Shown piece by piece: positions 5,564 through 33,603 of a stretch of 37,050 nucleotides of DNA. The position numbers and the translations under genes were made by a program. The notes under the pieces were generated by a model. It saw only the letters and a list, made by a program, of their open reading frames with translations, searched no databases and had not been told where the DNA came from. The stretch is from a virus. The stretch spans positions 1 to 37,050 of the IMG/VR virus record IMGVR_UViG_3300027996_000087; one strand, written 5' to 3'. How positions within the stretch are numbered: position 1 is the stretch's first letter; each line of letters starts with the position of its first letter.

Positions 5564-7377
5564 CCTAATGCAGCCCTTAACGCAATGAGAGAGTCCTGAC
5601 GAGACTTAATATCAGATACCATGTCACTACCGTTTATTCCTGTTGCCATACCTGGAGTACCATCTGCGTCCGTTAGAGGTACTGATATTTGAACGTCTTC
5701 AGGCTCTTGTGGTCTAGACTCGATAAATTTATTAACATTAGGGTTGGATGGCTTTTTAGCTTCTGGAGCTGGATCTGCTTTTTCTTCTGGGCTTTCGAAA
5801 TCAATATTTTCAAGCAATTCAACAATAGCCGCTCTATCCACACGAAGCTGTTTCCTCATTTGAGATGATGTGGCAATTCTCAGTCCTTCGTCTGTTGCCT
5901 TTAATAGCTCACCTAGACCTTTTTTGAAGGCAGGGGTTTTCCATGCGGAATTAATACCTTTTGCGCCAAGATATAAAGATATTCCAGCGCCGATAGGGCC
6001 AGCAACCGCTTGAGATGCGGCAAGTTGAGTTGTTCCAAGCCCAATGGCTGCTATACCTAGTATTTTACTTCTTGCCCCAAGAACCTCTGTTAGATTATGA
6101 ACCTGCCTCATAATCATGTTAGTTGCTTCGGCTTTTGCTTTAGGGGCTATATTATCAATTGCTTTGAATAGGTTAGATGATGAATCTAATAATCTCTGTG
6201 TTTTAACCCCTTTTGAATTCTTAACAACCACTTCATTTAATGCGCCTCTAATGGATCTATTTGCAGAGTCAAACATTCCAGCTTTGTCTGGAAATGATCC
6301 TTTTGCTTCTTTTACAAGCCTATCTAATTCTATTCTTGCCTTCCATATTCCATGAGCTGAATTATCAGTATTAGCCAATATCTTGTTAGCAGCCGTAACT
6401 ATTTCTTTTACATCTTTACTTCCTTCTTTTAGGAATATCTTCTCGTTTAGCATCTTTGAAACAGCAGAATCAATAGACTCAGACGCCTCTTTTATTAAAT
6501 CCTTCTCTGAAGCCGGTAATGCTTTAAGTCCGTCATCAAGCTCTTTTATTAAAGCGTCTTTATGCGCTACAATTTTATTCTGATTTCTTGTGAAGTTTGC
6601 CGAAGGATTTATTCCAGGCACTTTATTTACAGCCTTAGCAATTATCTTTTCTTCAGCAGAAGCAATAATCTCTTTTGTCCTTAATCCACCTACATCTATA
6701 GTCCTTAAGCTTTCTTTAGAGCCTTCCTTTGTATTAGCTGAAGTCTTTGGTCTAATAAGCTTTATAATGCTTCTTCGTCTATCTGCTGCGCTTAATTGCT
6801 TAGATCGCTTAACTAAGTCGCTTCCAGCTCTGCCAATAATAGTAGGCTGTGCAACAGGATTGCCTTTTCCAGCAGGATAAGCCGCCATTAGCGTATTAGC
6901 TACGTTTTCTACTTGCTGCATTGCTCTTGGGTTATCTTTCTCTAATTCCTTATAGAAATCTACCGCATCCCCACCAAATTCTAATATATTTGCGCCTTTC
7001 TCTGATAATGAAGTCCTTATCTCAGATGGTATTGCATTTACAAATGTCTTAGTGCTCTCTACTACTGCATCCTTTAATAAATTAGGAGTGTTTTTAGCAA
7101 TCCCTTTTATCCCTGTAACAATGGCATTGCCAACAGTATCAAGATAATAACTTGCTGCATTGCCTAGCAAGTCTCCAGCTAACTCAGGTGTTGATATTTC
7201 ACCTAACTGGTGTTTACCAATCTGGCCTGCGCTTTTTTCAAGGCCCTTAACTGCAATACCCTTCTGTCTTGTAGAAAATGATTCTGACTCTTGCTTTTCA
7301 TCAACTTCAACAGCAATACCACCAAATCTTCCACCATTGGTATTGTCTTCTACTAATGTCCCGCCAAATTTAGCCAT
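5560..7377 (-). CDS. Internal virion / DNA ejection protein, 605 aa
   Basis: The large helix-rich protein is the third of three consecutive genes after the tail genes. That is where short-tailed phages encode the internal proteins ejected with the DNA. It has a long mostly helical body with many Lys, Glu and Ala. A Gly/Ala-rich hydrophobic region lies near residues 440-475 (ILGIAAIGLGTTQLAASQ, then AGPIGAGISLYLGAK) and could insert in the host membrane. The acidic, Pro-containing tail ends KSRQDSLIALRAALG. No transglycosylase motif was recognised. Function is inferred from context and composition. Confidence 0.6.
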   Translation of the reverse strand: MAKFGGTLVEDNTNGGRFGGIAVEVDEKQESESFSTRQKGIAVKGLEKSAGQIGKHQLGEISTPELAGDLLGNAASYYLDTVGNAIVTGIKGIAKNTPNLLKDAVVESTKTFVNAIPSEIRTSLSEKGANILEFGGDAVDFYKELEKDNPRAMQQVENVANTLMAAYPAGKGNPVAQPTIIGRAGSDLVKRSKQLSAADRRRSIIKLIRPKTSANTKEGSKESLRTIDVGGLRTKEIIASAEEKIIAKAVNKVPGINPSANFTRNQNKIVAHKDALIKELDDGLKALPASEKDLIKEASESIDSAVSKMLNEKIFLKEGSKDVKEIVTAANKILANTDNSAHGIWKARIELDRLVKEAKGSFPDKAGMFDSANRSIRGALNEVVVKNSKGVKTQRLLDSSSNLFKAIDNIAPKAKAEATNMIMRQVHNLTEVLGARSKILGIAAIGLGTTQLAASQAVAGPIGAGISLYLGAKGINSAWKTPAFKKGLGELLKATDEGLRIATSSQMRKQLRVDRAAIVELLENIDFESPEEKADPAPEAKKPSNPNVNKFIESRPQEPEDVQISVPLTDADGTPGMATGINGSDMVSDIKSRQDSLIALRAALG

Positions 7378-8507
7378 TATGGTTTCCTGTATTTCTTGCC
7401 ATCATCAGGGTCTATATACTCTGCCCCACTCTTAAGATTATTATAGTCATCTTCTGTTAAAGGAGTTGGCAGTTTCTTTAATGGGCTTTTGAATTTAGGA
7501 GCATCTATCCTAAGATCAAATGGCATCGACCCTCTAGGAATCTTGCTTAAATCATCATTAAACCTATTAATTGTATTTAAGTTTACTTTTTGATTAAGTG
7601 ATAATATCCTTCTTATAGCCTTCTCTGATAATGAGATTTCTCCACCAGCAATCTGCTTTGCAAACTTTCTATCATTATCTGAAATGCCAGTACCTGCACC
7701 AAGAGCGCCACTACCTAAGATAGCTAGAGTAGCATTGCCCATATTAGCCATAAATGCTTCTGTATTTTTAACATCATCTTCAAAAGCACTAAACCCTATT
7801 CGATTAATTAATTTTCCAGTATTTTTAATGAACTCAGCGCCTGTTCCAGTAATAACGCCTGAGTTTAGTAAATCAATGGCGTCATTTGACTGATTAAGAG
7901 CCTTGCTTGCTGTTGTAGCAATAATTCTTTGTTCTGCTATATCAGCACCGATCTGTCTTGATAGAGACTTAGCAAACTCATCTTGATCGCCAAGATTGTT
8001 ATTAATGACCGTATCTGGGTCTTTAGCAGCGTTAGGATGCGCTACAATTTTATTAGTTGATAAATTCTTTTGTGCAATAGGCTTTCCATCGGCCCCAAAT
8101 ATCTCTTCAAACTTATCAACAGTTTTAGGCGCCTTAATAGATGCTCTAATCTCATTAGCAAACTGCATAGCTTGAGCAGACTCATTAGTAAATCCAGCCT
8201 GACCCAATAATTGAGCAGTTTTACCCATCATCTGCATTTGAATTTGCGGATCTTCTAACTTCTGGCCCTGAAACTCTTGAGTTATTTGAGCTTGAACAGC
8301 CTGAAACTTCTCAGCCTTTTCTTGCCCAGGCAATTTACCGCCTGTAGCTTCGCCTATGGCCTCACCAAATAATCCACCTGCCTGACTAGCTAGTTGAACG
8401 AATCCACGGCCTCTAGGCGTTGCTGCTGCCTGTTGTGCTCTTTGGAATAAACCCTGTCTAGCAGATGTTCTTACTTGCTCAGGGGATGGCATATTAAATA
8501 ATGGCAT
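7377..8507 (-). CDS. Internal virion / DNA ejection protein, 376 aa
   Basis: The Gln/Ala-rich helical protein starts MPLFNMPSPEQVRTSARQGL. An N-terminal Gln-rich helical stretch (AQQAAATPRGRGF, then KFQAVQAQITQEFQGQKLED) precedes a Gly/Ala-rich stretch (LAILGSGALGAGTGISDND) near the middle. The charged C-terminus ends DPDDGKKYRKP. It is coupled to both neighbours by one-base overlaps. With the genes at 8507 and 5560 it forms a three-gene set like the ejection proteins of P22-type or T7-type short-tailed phages. This is an inference; no catalytic motif is visible. Confidence 0.6.
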   Translation of the reverse strand: MPLFNMPSPEQVRTSARQGLFQRAQQAAATPRGRGFVQLASQAGGLFGEAIGEATGGKLPGQEKAEKFQAVQAQITQEFQGQKLEDPQIQMQMMGKTAQLLGQAGFTNESAQAMQFANEIRASIKAPKTVDKFEEIFGADGKPIAQKNLSTNKIVAHPNAAKDPDTVINNNLGDQDEFAKSLSRQIGADIAEQRIIATTASKALNQSNDAIDLLNSGVITGTGAEFIKNTGKLINRIGFSAFEDDVKNTEAFMANMGNATLAILGSGALGAGTGISDNDRKFAKQIAGGEISLSEKAIRRILSLNQKVNLNTINRFNDDLSKIPRGSMPFDLRIDAPKFKSPLKKLPTPLTEDDYNNLKSGAEYIDPDDGKKYRKP

Positions 8508-27352: not shown

Positions 27353-27480
27353 GGCTTTTCTGTTGTTTTCTTTACCTGAGCATTAGGGAAATACTCCCTA
27401 AATAAATCGATTGCTTTTGTTGTTTCTGGATATTTACGTCTGTTTTCCTTTAGCAAATCTGATCTGTTGGTATCTGACAT
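27343..27480 (-). CDS. Small basic protein, 45 aa, overlapping the helicase end
   Basis: ATG at 27480 lies behind AAGAGG (9 bases) inside the helicase 3' end. Reads MSDTNRSDLLKENRRKYPET, then KAIDLFREYFPNAQVKKTTE. It ends just at the spacer of promoter P27.3. The strong ribosome site and sensible composition support it; the 47-base overlap with the helicase is unusual for this genome, where most overlaps are 1-4 bases. Confidence 0.55.
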   Translation of the reverse strand: MSDTNRSDLLKENRRKYPETTKAIDLFREYFPNAQVKKTTEKPLL

Positions 27481-28876
27481 AATTTAAAACCTCTTGTGAA
27501 GGTGGTGAAGGTAGTACACCACGTTTTGTCTGCGGCCATTGGTCGAACTTTTCTTTGAATTTGTGACTACACCATCCCTCTGAATAACCCTTCTCTCTAG
27601 CGATATATAGAAGCTCGGCATACCATTGTCTTTTTACTTCTGGCTTAACTCGTTTTAGCTTTTCTAATTCGCCATGCTCAACCTCAATATCAGATCGTTT
27701 AGCGAATAAATGACCGCATTTAGGGCATGAAAATATATTAGACTCGACAAGAAAGTGACATTCAGGGCATTTCTTGGGCTTTAATTCTGTTTCTTTCTTT
27801 TCTTCGTTCTCTTCTTGGGTTTTATTCTCCGTCTTTTCCCCATCACATAAAACTGTAGGTAATTCGTCATCAGGCCAGCCTAATCTCTCAACATTCCCCG
27901 CATGATCTAATACAATGCAGTCCTTTTGTCCCTCATGAGATCTTAAGCCCCTGCCTATCATTTGAATGTATAAAGTTAATGACTTGGTTGGCCTTGCGAG
28001 AATCACACAATTAATACTCGTTTCATCAAAGCCCTTAGTTAAAACGCCTACACTTGATATTAACTGTATAACCCCATCCTTAAGGTCTTGAAAGATATCC
28101 TGCCTTTCTTCATCAGGTGTATGAGCATCAACATGAGCTGAGGGAATTCCTGCTAAATTAAACTCATTTATTAATTCTTTACTATGTCTGACATTAACGG
28201 GGAAAAGTATTGTTTTACGTCCTTCACCCTTTTCAAGGTAAGTATTAATAATGTCTGCCGTGATCTTTACAGAGCTAACCCGTTTATCCATCTGAATAGG
28301 GCTGTAATCCCCTGCTTGAATTTTTAAACCCTTAGTTGATATGGTAGGTGGTGCGTAAACAACAGGCTCAACTAAAAAGCCCTGCTCGATTAATTCAGCC
28401 GTTGTTATAGGATTAACTAAAGTCTCGTAGTGATTGCCTAATCCTCGTGTGAAAGGCGTAGCTGTAAGGCCAATAAATGGAACTAAAGACCATAATTTCA
28501 TCTGATTAGAAAGATAATCATAATGAGAATGACATTCATCGACTATAACCAGGTCAGCGTCGGGTATTTTCCTTCTCATTAAAGATTGAGCTGAACAGAT
28601 CTGGAATGGAAGCCACGGACGATAACATGGGTGATCTGCTTGAACTATTCCATGAGGTATATCATTAAATGCTTTGCTTGCCTGATCAATTAACGTCTTA
28701 CGATCAACAATAAATAAAACCTTTTTATTATTATCCAATGCTTTTTGAATGATTGTTTTAGCTATGAGGCTTTTTCCGCTACCAGTCGGTAGCATAAGCA
28801 CTACTCTCTTAAACCCCTTCTTTAATTCACCTCTAACAGCTTCTATTGAGTCAATCTGATACGGCCTTAATTTCAT
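27434..28876 (-). CDS. Superfamily 2 (DEAD/DEAH-type) DNA helicase
   Basis: The 480-aa protein has the SF2 motifs in order: LRPYQIDSIEAV, Walker A LPTGSGKS (about residues 30-37), motif II VDECHS, motif III LTATPF and motif VI QMIGRGLR. The C-terminal zinc ribbon is C-x2-C (CPECHF) with C-x2-C (CPKCGH). This is the phage replicative-type SF2 helicase found beside primase genes. It should unwind DNA at forks or recombination intermediates. It overlaps the HNH gene by 4 bases. Confidence 0.88.
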   Translation of the reverse strand: MKLRPYQIDSIEAVRGELKKGFKRVVLMLPTGSGKSLIAKTIIQKALDNNKKVLFIVDRKTLIDQASKAFNDIPHGIVQADHPCYRPWLPFQICSAQSLMRRKIPDADLVIVDECHSHYDYLSNQMKLWSLVPFIGLTATPFTRGLGNHYETLVNPITTAELIEQGFLVEPVVYAPPTISTKGLKIQAGDYSPIQMDKRVSSVKITADIINTYLEKGEGRKTILFPVNVRHSKELINEFNLAGIPSAHVDAHTPDEERQDIFQDLKDGVIQLISSVGVLTKGFDETSINCVILARPTKSLTLYIQMIGRGLRSHEGQKDCIVLDHAGNVERLGWPDDELPTVLCDGEKTENKTQEENEEKKETELKPKKCPECHFLVESNIFSCPKCGHLFAKRSDIEVEHGELEKLKRVKPEVKRQWYAELLYIAREKGYSEGWCSHKFKEKFDQWPQTKRGVLPSPPSQEVLNYVRYQQIRFAKGKQT

Positions 28877-29448: not shown

Positions 29449-29892
29449 TTATTTGTAATACCTCTTAATTAAAGAAGGCAGCTTAGCCAGTGCCTGTTTT
29501 TCCCTATCCCAAGCATCCCATTTCCCCTCGATATTAGGCTCTCCTGAGAATAATCTAGCTTTTAAACATTGCTGAATAATGCACAGCTCTGCGTACAAAG
29601 GGTGCATAGCCCTTTCCCTCGCTTCCTTATGATGCTTTTCAGCTCTTAATGATCGCCACTCACTATCATCAGTCTCTTCTGAATATAAATTCTTAGCCTC
29701 AAGGCCAACGCAAGATAAAATATCCTGATAATCACATCCAGCATGGCAATAAATACCTATTCTATCGACATGATCAAATATCATTAATCCGCTATTCTTA
29801 CTTGAGCCATGTGAAGGGCAAGTGCATCGGTAAACATTGTTTTTACTGGCAGGCTTTACGTTTTCAAATCGCTGCAAGAACTCATTAATCAT
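29449..29892 (-). CDS. Primase zinc-finger protein
   Basis: The 147-aa protein contains YRCTCPSHGSSKNSGLMIF, then GIYCHAGCDYQDILSCVGL. This is the CHC2/P4-type primase zinc-binding module (C-x-H ... C-x2-C) used to recognise template. No primase catalytic (TOPRIM or archaeo-eukaryotic) domain follows; the rest is a charged helical tail. It likely works with the helicase and host primase. The gene precedes the HNH and helicase genes in P30.2, separated from HNH by 93 non-coding bases. Confidence 0.75.
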   Translation of the reverse strand: MINEFLQRFENVKPASKNNVYRCTCPSHGSSKNSGLMIFDHVDRIGIYCHAGCDYQDILSCVGLEAKNLYSEETDDSEWRSLRAEKHHKEARERAMHPLYAELCIIQQCLKARLFSGEPNIEGKWDAWDREKQALAKLPSLIKRYYK

Positions 29893-30191
29893 AATCTGCG
29901 CTCCATTTCTTCCGTAAGAAACTTAATGCCACGCGCTAAAGATTCATCAGATAGAAACTTACGACTAGCAATAACCTGATTAATAATTAAATTTATGTCA
30001 TATATTTTACGTTTTGCAGGCTTCTTGCTTTCAAATTGCTCTGCCATTTCATCAGATATTTCATCCCCCTCAACATCATCCATCCACCCCGCTCTTGGAG
30101 GCCAATCTATTCCTAATGCTTCAATCTGTGGTTTAGTCCAAGCACCTTTATTTGTTCTGTTCGCCATTATATATTCTTTCGTGATAACCAT
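29889..30191 (-). CDS. Small protein, first gene of P30.2, 100 aa
   Basis: ATG at 30191 lies behind AAGGGG (8 bases); an internal Met at 30167 has a weaker site. It contains NKGAWTKPQIEALGIDWPPR, then an acidic stretch and basic KKPAKRKIYD. The helical C-terminus is SLARGIKFLTEEMERRL. It is probably a DNA-binding or regulatory partner in replication. No family is recognised. Confidence 0.6.
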   Translation of the reverse strand: MVITKEYIMANRTNKGAWTKPQIEALGIDWPPRAGWMDDVEGDEISDEMAEQFESKKPAKRKIYDINLIINQVIASRKFLSDESLARGIKFLTEEMERRL

Positions 30192-30194
30192 ATA

Positions 30195-30223
30195 TTTAAC
30201 CCCTTAAGATAAGTTTACATACT
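30195..30223 (+). promoter_or_regulatory. Possible rightward promoter for the structured RNA
   Basis: TTTAAC (30195-30200), 17-base spacer, CATACT (30218-30223). The match is moderate (3 of 6 and 4 of 6). It would start the RNA near 30230, just before its first helix, and it faces P30.2. Confidence 0.3.
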
Positions 30224-30247
30224 AAGGCTCAGATTCCCGCGTCTAAA
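30219..30247 (-). promoter_or_regulatory. Promoter P30.2 (leftward)
   Basis: Minus strand TTTAGA (30247-30242), 17-base spacer, TAGTAT (30224-30219). Start about 30212, giving a short leader with AAGGGG before the gene at 30191. Confidence 0.5.
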
Positions 30248-30760
30248 GTCTGGACACTAAGAAGCTTATAGGCGGTACGTTAATACCACTCTGTAAGCTT
30301 CTCAGTGACATACTATAGGACGAGAAACACAGGCCATAGTTGTCATTGCCTAATTTGTATTAGGAAGGAATCTTGTTAGCTTATAAGGTCATTAGTCTTA
30401 TAGTCTTCATGTAGAGCATCCCTATAAGTTTTGAGGTAACGGAAGGTTTTAAGACCAATCAACGCTCTCTAACTTATGTCGCAGCACTATCCGCTTGCCA
30501 TGAAACTCAATAACGGATTAATAAAATACGCCCTGAATCAGCTTTACAGACGTAAGTATCTGCAAACGGGTTTGACCTTGAGAGAATGTAAAACTATAAT
30601 TGGCTTAATTCTGTTGAATCTTAGAAGTCGAATCATAGTTCTGATTTCTCTGTTAGGGCTGTCACCCGTTGCAGATTGTTTTAAATCTTAGACTAAGCCC
30701 TCGCAAGCGTCAAGTCTAAAACTCGAAAGGCCACCTAATTATATCTGGTGGCCTTTTTTA
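30240..30760 (+). ncRNA. Large structured RNA, about 520 nt
   Basis: No convincing gene lies here, but helices run in order. P1 is 30255-30268/30294-30307 (13 of 14 pairs), with inner 30274-30277/30284-30287. P2 is 30307-30319/30334-30344 (bulged). P3 is 30349-30354/30359-30364, loop TTGT. P4 is 30380-30388/30420-30428. P5 is 30472-30480/30549-30557 (9 pairs, one GU), enclosing 30489-30493/30514-30518. P6 is 30558-30571/30664-30676 (13 pairs, one bulge), directly stacked on P5 and enclosing 30581-30586/30646-30651 and 30592-30597/30635-30640. P7 is 30688-30694/30713-30719. A strong terminator follows. It may belong to the large phage RNA classes (such as GOLLD or ROOL) or be new; I cannot tell from sequence alone. 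A 71-codon reading frame here (30476) lacks a ribosome site and is disfavoured. Confidence 0.75.
30726..30759 (+). terminator. Strong intrinsic terminator of the structured RNA
   Basis: AAAGGCCACC (30726-30735) pairs with GGTGGCCTTT (30747-30756) around an 11-base loop, with T at 30754-30759. A near-textbook terminator on the plus strand. Confidence 0.88.
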
Positions 30761-30817
30761 TATCGGCAAATCTATTCCTACTAATATCATCACCAGGATT
30801 AACATTGTTGATTTCAT
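30758..30817 (-). CDS. Possible 19-aa hydrophobic peptide
   Basis: ATG at 30817 lies behind GGAG (8 bases). Reads MKSTMLILVMILVGIDLPI, a single likely membrane helix, and ends in the terminator T-tract. It overlaps the -35 and spacer of the rightward promoter on the other strand. Too short to be confident. Confidence 0.25.
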   Translation of the reverse strand: MKSTMLILVMILVGIDLPI

Positions 30818-30835
30818 GGCTTTCTCCGCTATAAT
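30808..30835 (+). promoter_or_regulatory. Promoter P30.8 (rightward)
   Basis: TTGATT (30808-30813), 16-base spacer, perfect TATAAT (30830-30835). The start region carries AATCCAGT (30841), half of the operator at P27.3 and P31.2. It drives the small HTH-like gene. Confidence 0.6.
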
Positions 30836-30934
30836 CATTTAATCCAGTCTTCAGGTATAGGACTTAAAACGATCCTTCTGAACCTGTTGACTGGGTACTT
30901 GCTCTCTGCAATCTATCAGACTACAATGCCTATC

Positions 30935-31153
30935 ATGAATAAATACACCAAACTTGTCAATAGAACAATCGATCATCTTAAAGAAGTTAAAGCGAAATTT
31001 AATCGTGGCTCATTAGGTATTGTAGCGCAGCTCGCTAACGTTAATAAGATGAAACCCATTAACTTATTAGATGGTAGTCGAGTAAGCCCGCCTGAAGACG
31101 AGTGTAGACGTATCATAAGAATCTGTAAGGTCTTGCTTAAGACTTACTACTAA
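30935..31153 (+). CDS. Small basic protein, possibly HTH, 72 aa
   Basis: Reads from the ATG at 30935 (MNKYTKLVNRTIDHLKEVKA). An ATG at 30926 or an upstream TTG are alternatives, and no start has a clear ribosome site. The segment RGSLGIVAQLANVNKMKPIN resembles a helix-turn-helix, followed by LLDGSRVSPPEDECRRIIRI, typical of small Cro-like regulators. It has its own promoter and terminator. It is the best candidate in this block for the protein reading the shared operators, but that is an inference. Confidence 0.5.
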   Translation: MNKYTKLVNRTIDHLKEVKAKFNRGSLGIVAQLANVNKMKPINLLDGSRVSPPEDECRRIIRICKVLLKTYY

Positions 31154-31155
31154 GT

Positions 31156-31222
31156 ATATCCGGCTAGTTCTTTCCCATCATATGTTTCCCCGTATGAGAA
31201 CTGGCTGGATATTTATTTCATT
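31156..31222 (+). terminator. Long stem-loop terminator
   Basis: The 16-pair stem 31156-31171/31197-31212 has two GU pairs and no mismatch. An inner CATA/TATG stem sits in its loop, and T-rich TTATTTCATTTATTTTC follows. It separates the HTH-like gene from promoter P31.2. Confidence 0.6.
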
Positions 31223-31239
31223 TATTTTCATTAATTCCC

Positions 31240-31268
31240 TTTACATCTGCAATCTACTGGATTATAGT
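31240..31268 (+). promoter_or_regulatory. Promoter P31.2 with spacer operator
   Basis: TTTACA (31240-31245), 17-base spacer, TATAGT (31263-31268). AATCTACTGGATT (31251-31263) occupies the spacer, the same 13-mer as at P27.3. It drives the recombination operon from 31295. Confidence 0.65.
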
Positions 31269-31294
31269 TAACTCAACTTAAGAGGGGAAACAAG

Positions 31295-31555
31295 ATGAAA
31301 ATCATATTACTTAGAAATACAAAATACAACTTCGAATCAGTTTGGGAGGCTGGCGATAATTATCCAGACGAGCTTATTCCTGTGTCGGAACCAATGGAAG
31401 TAGAATTTAAAATGCTTCCTGATCTAGACGTGCTTAATCTTCAGATTGAAGAAATCGACAATCAGATTCAAAAAGAAAGAGCTAATAGTCAAGTCAGATT
31501 AAATAATCTTAATCAAAAGAAACAAGAGCTTCTTTCTATAGGGAGTGACTCATGA
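31295..31555 (+). CDS. Small acidic protein, 86 aa
   Basis: First gene of P31.2, with ribosome site AGAGGGGAAACA. It has an acidic N-terminal half (ESVWEAGDNYPDELIPVSEP) and a C-terminal coiled coil (LNLQIEEIDNQIQKERANSQ, then VRLNNLNQKKQEL). Stop and next start overlap as ATGA. No family is recognised. Confidence 0.65.
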   Translation: MKIILLRNTKYNFESVWEAGDNYPDELIPVSEPMEVEFKMLPDLDVLNLQIEEIDNQIQKERANSQVRLNNLNQKKQELLSIGSDS

Positions 31556-32630: not shown

Positions 32631-33026
32631 ATGACTACTGTTATAACCGGAAAATTAAACAAAGACGCTAATGAATTTCAGGCCGGTGAATCCATTGGAT
32701 TTGGGATACGTCTTGGCGTTCAGTATTACGATAGAAAAACAAAAGGGAAAGAATGGACAAACTATTCAGCAGCTGTGTTTGCTAAAGCAGGGCCACAAGC
32801 TGAGTTCTATCGCTCTGCATTGACAGAAGGAGCAATAGTTGAGTTATCAGGCGCATCAGAAAAGATCGATTCTTACGATGGCGCTAATGGTGTCTTATTA
32901 ACTATTGAGTTAAATGATGCGAAATTAGGTTACATCGGTTTTGCAGGTGATCCAAAGCCTAAAGCGGTTAATGCACATAGTCCCGCCCCAGCAGCCGATG
33001 GGTTTGACGACGAAATTGATTTTTAA
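32631..33026 (+). CDS. ssb: Single-stranded DNA-binding protein (OB fold)
   Basis: The 131-aa protein has a beta-rich N-terminal domain (TGKLNKDANEFQAGESIGFG, then WTNYSAAVFAKAGPQAEFYR). A Pro/Ala linker and the acidic tip DGFDDEIDF follow, as in bacterial SSB tails (DDDIPF), which recruit repair proteins. It starts 4 bases after the annealing-protein stop. Confidence 0.8.
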   Translation: MTTVITGKLNKDANEFQAGESIGFGIRLGVQYYDRKTKGKEWTNYSAAVFAKAGPQAEFYRSALTEGAIVELSGASEKIDSYDGANGVLLTIELNDAKLGYIGFAGDPKPKAVNAHSPAPAADGFDDEIDF

Positions 33027-33030
33027 ATTG

Positions 33031-33101
33031 AACTACTCGCTATTCTCTGTATGCGAGTAATCATAGCGGCACACGGATTAATAGCGTAGTTCGTGTGCCG
33101 C
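33031..33101 (+). promoter_or_regulatory. Pseudoknot element between ssb and the Gp157-like gene
   Basis: Stem Y is GCGGCACACG/CGTGTGCCGC (33066-33075/33092-33101), 10 perfect pairs with a 16-base loop. That loop holds AATAGCGTAGTT (33080-33091), which pairs with AACTAC-T-CGCTATT (33031-33044) over 13 pairs with one bulge, ending directly next to stem Y: an H-type pseudoknot. An alternative local hairpin TACTCGC/GCGAGTA (33034-33040/33053-33059) excludes it. There is no U-tract, so it is not a simple terminator. Confidence 0.6.
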
Positions 33102-33120
33102 GACTTTAAGGGGAAACAAA

Positions 33121-33603
33121 ATGAATTTATACGAAATCTCAAACGATTATAAAAATGTCTTCAGCGAATTGGAGCGAATAGGATTTGATGAAGAAACCAT
33201 TAAGGACACACTCGCAGAAAAGAAGGACGATCTCCAGGTCAAGTGCCAATCGGTTGCCTTTTATATTGCCAACATCGAGGCTGAACAGAAAGCCGTTAAG
33301 GAAGCGGCTGCTAAGATGGCTGACAGAGCTAAGGTTATTCAAAATAAGATAGATGGTATGAAGGCTTATCTATTGGAGAATATGCTCTTAAACGACATTA
33401 CAGAAATAAGCTCACCTGAATTAGTTATTAAGACTGCTAAGACTCCAGCAAAGGTGATTATTGATGGCGATATTCCTGATGACTTTCTTATTCGTAGAGT
33501 AACTGATGCGCCAGATAAGAAGGCTATTAAGTTAGCGATTGATAATGGCGAGACTGTTAAAGGCGCTCATTTAGAAACAGGCTTTAGACTATCAATTAAG
33601 TAA
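33121..33603 (+). CDS. Gp157-like protein
   Basis: The 160-aa protein matches the siphovirus Gp157 family (PF05565). It has LYEISNDYKNVFSELERIGF, IKDTLAEKKDDLQVKCQSVA, a long helical coiled segment (AKVIQNKIDGMKAYLLENML), then a beta part with PAKVIIDGDIPDDFLIRR. The family is common in recombination operons; function is unproven. ATG lies behind AAGGGGAAAC. A 10-pair pseudoknot stem ends 20 bases upstream. Confidence 0.8.
   Translation: MNLYEISNDYKNVFSELERIGFDEETIKDTLAEKKDDLQVKCQSVAFYIANIEAEQKAVKEAAAKMADRAKVIQNKIDGMKAYLLENMLLNDITEISSPELVIKTAKTPAKVIIDGDIPDDFLIRRVTDAPDKKAIKLAIDNGETVKGAHLETGFRLSIK

Follow-up and report, generated by a model that had tools for sequence, protein, structure and literature searches.

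A structured non-coding stretch that separates the divergent replication and recombination operons in an aquatic phage, possibly a control region encoding a short antisense RNA

The stretch of DNA analysed here, referred to as the window, is a virus record of 37,050 bases from an aquatic phage (IMG/VR IMGVR_UViG_3300027996_000087). A preliminary description had placed a structured non-coding interval between two divergent operons. This was upheld, and the operons were identified as a replication operon on the minus strand and a recombination operon on the plus strand (Table 1). Among named phages the closest organisation was that of Pseudoalteromonas phages HS1 and HS5 and Vibrio phage 1.115.A, with helicases about 38-41% identical to that of the window. 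In kin the corresponding divergent operons are only ~140 nt apart (HS1 7881-8023, Vibrio 1.115.A 6839-6983, in locus coordinates). A further contig, IMG/VR 3300023210_000326 (L087), stems from what is essentially the same phage, its proteins being 99-100% identical. It extends from about window position 31391 across the window end to the window start. Because it spans the end-to-start join, the genome is circularly permuted or circular. The structured region is flanked by the direct repeat GGCMAATCTATTCCTA (15/16 positions; 30100-30115 and 30765-30780), one copy of which is located inside the gene 29889-30191; the repeat could be a mark of an insertion or duplication, or chance.

Table 1. Genes, predicted RNA domains and transcription signals in and around the interval (window coordinates).
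Feature	Position	Strand	Remarks
Terminase, portal, major head and tail genes		-	
Replication block		-	NinG-like nuclease, helicase, HNH nuclease, primase-like zinc-finger protein, 100-aa protein
Helicase (DEAD)	27434-28876	-	
Primase-like zinc-finger protein	29449-29892	-	
100-aa protein	29889-30191	-	Part of replication block; likely start codon 30168
Non-coding interval	30168-30757		~590 nt, from minus-operon start codon to end of plus-strand terminator; z about -5 on both strands
Proposed structured leader of replication operon	30168-30678	-	Based on fold z and weak promoter candidate
Domain 1	30231-30373		7-pair closing helix, four hairpins
Domain 2	30403-30551	+	Weak
Domain 3	30558-30676		Long hairpin; continuous long hairpin on minus strand
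Promoter-like site TTGACC-17-TATAAT	30572-30600	+	11/12 to sigma70 consensus; start expected near 30607
Proposed ~150-nt non-coding RNA	30607-30757	+	Promoter and terminator; fold z -3.9
Candidate promoter TTGACG-17-TAAGAT	30713-30685	-	9/12, weak
Intrinsic terminator	30726-30756	+	10 pairs (30726-30735/30747-30756), 11-nt loop, then TTTTTT
Second structured stretch	30842-31216	+ only	From promoter-like site 30808-30835 to terminator-like hairpin 31156-31212
Genes beyond the interval		+	72-aa ORF (30935-31153), two small ORFs, Sak-like annealing protein, SSB-like and Gam-like proteins

The interval contains a 71-aa ORF (30476-30691) with a codon score of -0.231; on this scale real genes had +0.116 ± 0.077 and other ORFs -0.124 ± 0.158. 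As the score is far below that of genes, the ORF was taken as non-coding. There was no coding signal by codon score in the interval, in which the earlier description had seen no ribosome site supporting a gene. A tRNA search of the 37-kb window yielded none, which excluded a tRNA or tmRNA reading.

On the plus strand 30220-30765 had a predicted minimum free energy of -155.8 kcal/mol and a z of -4.8, and 0 of 100 shuffles was as good. For 30231-30757 z was -4.9, and across tests the plus strand reached -5.2. The ensemble was tight (diversity rank 1/50). When the terminator was left out z dropped to about -3. The minus strand folded at least as well, with z between -4.7 and -6.9. The stretch proposed as the minus-strand leader had z of -5.4 and -5.5 in two runs, and none of 100 shuffles matched it in the run with -5.4. 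Since the minus strand folds as well as the plus strand, the helices do not tell which strand is the RNA. A strand call from z alone was rejected, because a Watson-Crick hairpin folds both ways and z differs via base composition only. G-U counts were balanced between the strands and picked neither.

At least ten helices had been claimed; the partition function gave about 18 with at least three pairs, most of them with a mean pair probability above 0.8. Domain 1 (30229-30375) had z of -6.2 on the plus and -7.1 on the minus strand. In the plus-strand reading its helices abut at 30302/30303 and 30348/30349, and its closure is exact at 30231/30373 in the partition function. Domain 2 (30400-30552) was not above chance (z -1.0 on plus, +1.1 on minus). 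Domain 3 (30555-30680) had z of -3.9 on the plus and -8.3 on the minus strand. The 13-pair stem with one bulge seen previously was recovered exactly at 30558-30571/30664-30676, enclosing 92 bases. The claimed base-to-base contact of two helices at 30557/30558 was not reproduced; the helix before it stops at 30551 in the best fold.

When 520-nt tiles were folded genome-wide, the lowest z were those of tiles over 30180-31220; with 80 shuffles z was -5.2 on the minus strand for 30180-30699 and -6.4 on the plus strand for 30700-31219. Among 150-nt segments the lowest z of the genome was at 33001-33150 (-5.5 with 40 shuffles, -4.5 with 80), surrounding the short intergenic space that separates the SSB-like gene from the Gam-like one. 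Structured gaps are common in phages with related helicases: 5 of 22 long ORF-poor gaps had z of -5 or below on at least one strand, a rough count from 12 shuffles each. Their frequency makes the structure in the window less surprising. None of them had similarity to the window, and several contain small HTH genes. In three of these relatives (L216:719-843, L203:520-643 and L223; alignment A4) conserved hairpins lie in the space separating a small HTH gene from the gene that follows. One hairpin has a TATTATA -10-like loop, and by eye the aligned copies seem to keep the pairing. Two others, L204:8529-9060 and L215:5954-6461, have a long, partly ORF-free gap of low energy about 4 kb downstream of the helicase; the two gaps are about 70% identical. 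A relative by its terminase (L124:1240-1895, IMG/VR 3300038492_000068) has an ORF-poor structured gap with z of -4.7, which by eye carries a near-perfect sigma54-type promoter, TTGGCACGATTCTTGCT. This gap had no Rfam match and no homologue among phage records.

Among the sigma70-type promoter sites of the region the plus-strand one at 30572-30600 is the strongest; it is situated inside the interval, 150 nt before the terminator. A plus-strand site as good occurred in 30169-30757 in 0.25% of shuffles (P 0.0025). Genome-wide 15 sites scored at least 10/12, and 4 of these are in this 1.1 kb, which is 3% of the genome (P 0.0025); scoring was against the sigma70 consensus, which phage promoters may not follow. 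Further upstream on the plus strand, at about 30200-30230, no promoter-like site was present. The 10-pair terminator proposed earlier was confirmed; by our criteria neither genome strand has another site of such quality, and shuffled genomes had 0-2 each. Because of this terminator some non-coding plus-strand transcript probably ends there, and we consider an end at 30757 likely.

On the minus strand no promoter-like site of at least 9/12 was found from 30168 to 30685. The weak candidates at 30713-30685, 30766-30738 and 30960-30932 are not significant individually, and at 9/12 a minus-strand candidate does not exceed chance, with 8 sites in the region where 4.7 were expected. A promoter-like block, CTGCAATCTAyyrGAytAyart, is present twice (30906-30928 and 31247-31269) with zero expected by chance in the window, and as an exact pattern it was absent from IMG/VR. 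A transcript from the copy at 30906-30928 would be leaderless, beginning at ATG 30935. The region has no iteron array.

Downstream, 30842-31216 had z of -4.8 in one run and, in another, -4.2 on the plus compared with -1.1 on the minus strand. Its ensemble diversity ranked 1/50 on the plus and 44/50 on the minus strand. The stretch contains the 72-aa ORF 30935-31153. In the predicted fold the start codons of this ORF are base-paired; its codon score (-0.018) is ambiguous. The ORF product had no Pfam or PHROG match, gave a low-confidence structure model with no PDB match and showed no BLAST similarity to a small HTH protein encoded close to a relative's helicase. Inspected by eye, its sequence is reminiscent of an HTH regulator.

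Known RNA families were examined with the Rfam 15 covariance models, applied to the window at gathering thresholds and to the stretch alone at E up to 5. No family had a match at gathering score in the window. For GOLLD, ROOL, HEARO, OLE and raiA, the families the preliminary description had named for comparison, there was also no match at E ≤ 5 in the stretch. The best match in the stretch was Phe_leader on the terminator, with 26 of the 55 bits required. GOLLD is often found near tRNA islands and is often longer than 800 nt (PMC12286853); here the window has no tRNA and the stretch about 530 nt. Thus the resemblance to GOLLD and ROOL was not borne out by any feature tested.

Homologues were not detected by blastn in 50,697 phage records and 72,556 plasmids, by a DNA search of 42 records of kin, by low-stringency blastn over all collected loci, or by IMG/VR scans that used three proteins (primase-like, small ORF, helicase) together with two exact DNA patterns. 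Two covariance models, R1 (30229-30375) and R2 (30555-30680), were each built from the window sequence alone; searching about 1.65 Mb of kin with them turned up no homologue. The only other matches of these models were the opposite strand of the window itself and L231:1973-2091, which with E 0.19 was taken as chance. L087, found via the annealing protein, was discarded as a source of homologues, being the same phage and starting after the interval. A terminase search of genome contigs gave three MAG matches, none useful. Antisense complementarity to distant genes and repeats shared with the rest of the genome were not above chance. As it stands, the structured interval is an orphan known from one genome; near-identical records may be missing from the collections searched, so that strain variants may exist.

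How may these elements work together? Our tentative preference, which we hold with less than even confidence, is a replication control region in which a ~150-nt plus-strand RNA would act as an antisense to the long, structured leader of the minus-strand operon. With the promoter at 30572-30600 and the terminator at 30726-30756, the simplest transcription unit is a plus-strand RNA of 30607-30757. Own promoter-like and terminator-like sites opposite a leader are a feature of antisense RNAs, seen here in the sequence alone. Transcripts of the replication operon (start codon 30168) would cross the region and so begin with a long structured leader; we infer its length because no promoter-like site is nearer to 30168 than 30685. 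The plus-strand RNA would be fully complementary to the 5' hairpin of the leader, and pairing would reduce how strongly the replication genes are expressed, by analogy with antisense RNAs in plasmid copy control and phage immunity regions. The whole would constitute the region that controls expression of the two early, divergent operons, about 590 nt larger than in known relatives. The replication and recombination genes on either side and the ~140-nt gap of kin also counted for this reading. This reading is slightly preferred over a single long plus-strand RNA and over hairpins acting at the DNA level, since it relies on a promoter and a terminator that the sequence does contain and accounts for structure on both strands. 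Folding on both strands is expected where both are RNA and was counted in its favour; an inverted repeat, however, folds on both strands whichever is used, so that two-strand structure is no proof of two RNAs. The weak point is the minus-strand promoter, a candidate only. That domain 1 also forms a compact plus-strand domain was counted against it.

A single plus-strand RNA of ~530 nt, running from about 30225 to 30757 as a multi-domain structure and perhaps acting as a scaffold or oligomer like GOLLD and ROOL, is possible though doubtful. The plus-strand fold (z -4.9 to -5.2) with its top-ranked ensemble, the terminator on the same strand and the exact closure of domain 1 argue for it. A precedent is the ~800-nt RNA of phage ICP1 (PMC7567579). 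This account has to contend with a strong promoter inside the proposed RNA and none near its start, with better folding on the minus strand and a domain 2 not above chance, and with searches of phages, plasmids, IMG/VR and kin that returned no homologue. We regard it as unlikely that the region represents a new class, i.e. a large (about 530 nt) multi-domain plus-strand phage RNA without Rfam relative together with a second plus-strand RNA at 30842-31216.

Somewhat less probable than a single RNA is control at the DNA level, in which the repeats are operators, promoter palindromes, terminators and perhaps a replication origin, and no RNA structure functions. The multi-loop domains of 143 and 119 nt are bigger and more irregular than usual operator palindromes, an iteron array is missing and the terminator implies a gene-free plus-strand transcript. 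Yet the pairing is symmetrical on both strands, four promoter-like sites and the duplicated block (30906, 31247) are clustered here, and the frequent low-z gaps of helicase kin in some cases have small HTH genes followed by hairpins. A diverged GOLLD, ROOL, HEARO, OLE or raiA member missed by Rfam is highly improbable, as size and phage setting are all that favour it, and the sub-threshold Phe_leader match and the lack of a tRNA speak against it.

In layout the region resembles plasmid antisense and phage leader-RNA systems, by analogy, and GOLLD and ROOL only in size. In ColE1, RNA I and RNA II provide antisense control of plasmid replication. In plasmids R1 and pMV158 a small transcriptional repressor and an antisense RNA limit the replication gene (PMC5717011; PMC4485353). 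As in R1 (CopA/CopB), pMV158 (RNAII/CopG) and ColE1, a strong promoter and a terminator would set a short RNA opposite a long structured replication leader; as in R1 and pMV158, a small repressor-sized ORF adjoins (30935-31153, its repressor role putative). Unlike these plasmids the window is a phage, both transcripts are predictions and there is no sequence relation. Phages P1, P7 and N15 and the satellite P4 have non-coding RNAs complementary to gene leaders (PMC7567579). The proposed RNA is similar to C4 of P1 and P7, to those of N15 and P4 (CI) and to the PLE IIR transcript in being a control-region RNA, early or immunity, complementary to a leader (PMC7567579); in contrast to them it would be antisense in cis. 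In ICP1, a phage without tRNAs, the most abundant transcript is the RNA cited above, which comes from an ORF-less gap and was likened in length to GOLLD and ROOL by its authors (PMC7567579). The likeness to the window is that of a large ORF-less transcript in a phage without tRNAs; the ICP1 RNA was shown by RNA-seq and adjoins lysis genes, whereas that of the window is predicted and has the replication operon on one side and the recombination operon on the other. The phage RNAs GOLLD and ROOL, whose function is unknown, are often encoded close to tRNA islands and form RNA cages (PMC12286853). A pseudoknotted fold and a homo-oligomeric cage characterise ROOL. Phage setting, a size of hundreds of nucleotides and many helices are shared; the window differs in having no Rfam match and no tRNA, in being shorter than GOLLD and in its uncertain strand.

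Taken together, the findings point more towards a replication control region that yields a short antisense RNA than towards an established new giant RNA. If the single-RNA reading were true, it would add another large phage RNA beyond the known classes. If the antisense reading is true, early replication genes of a phage would be controlled like plasmid copy number, by a short RNA acting against a long leader.
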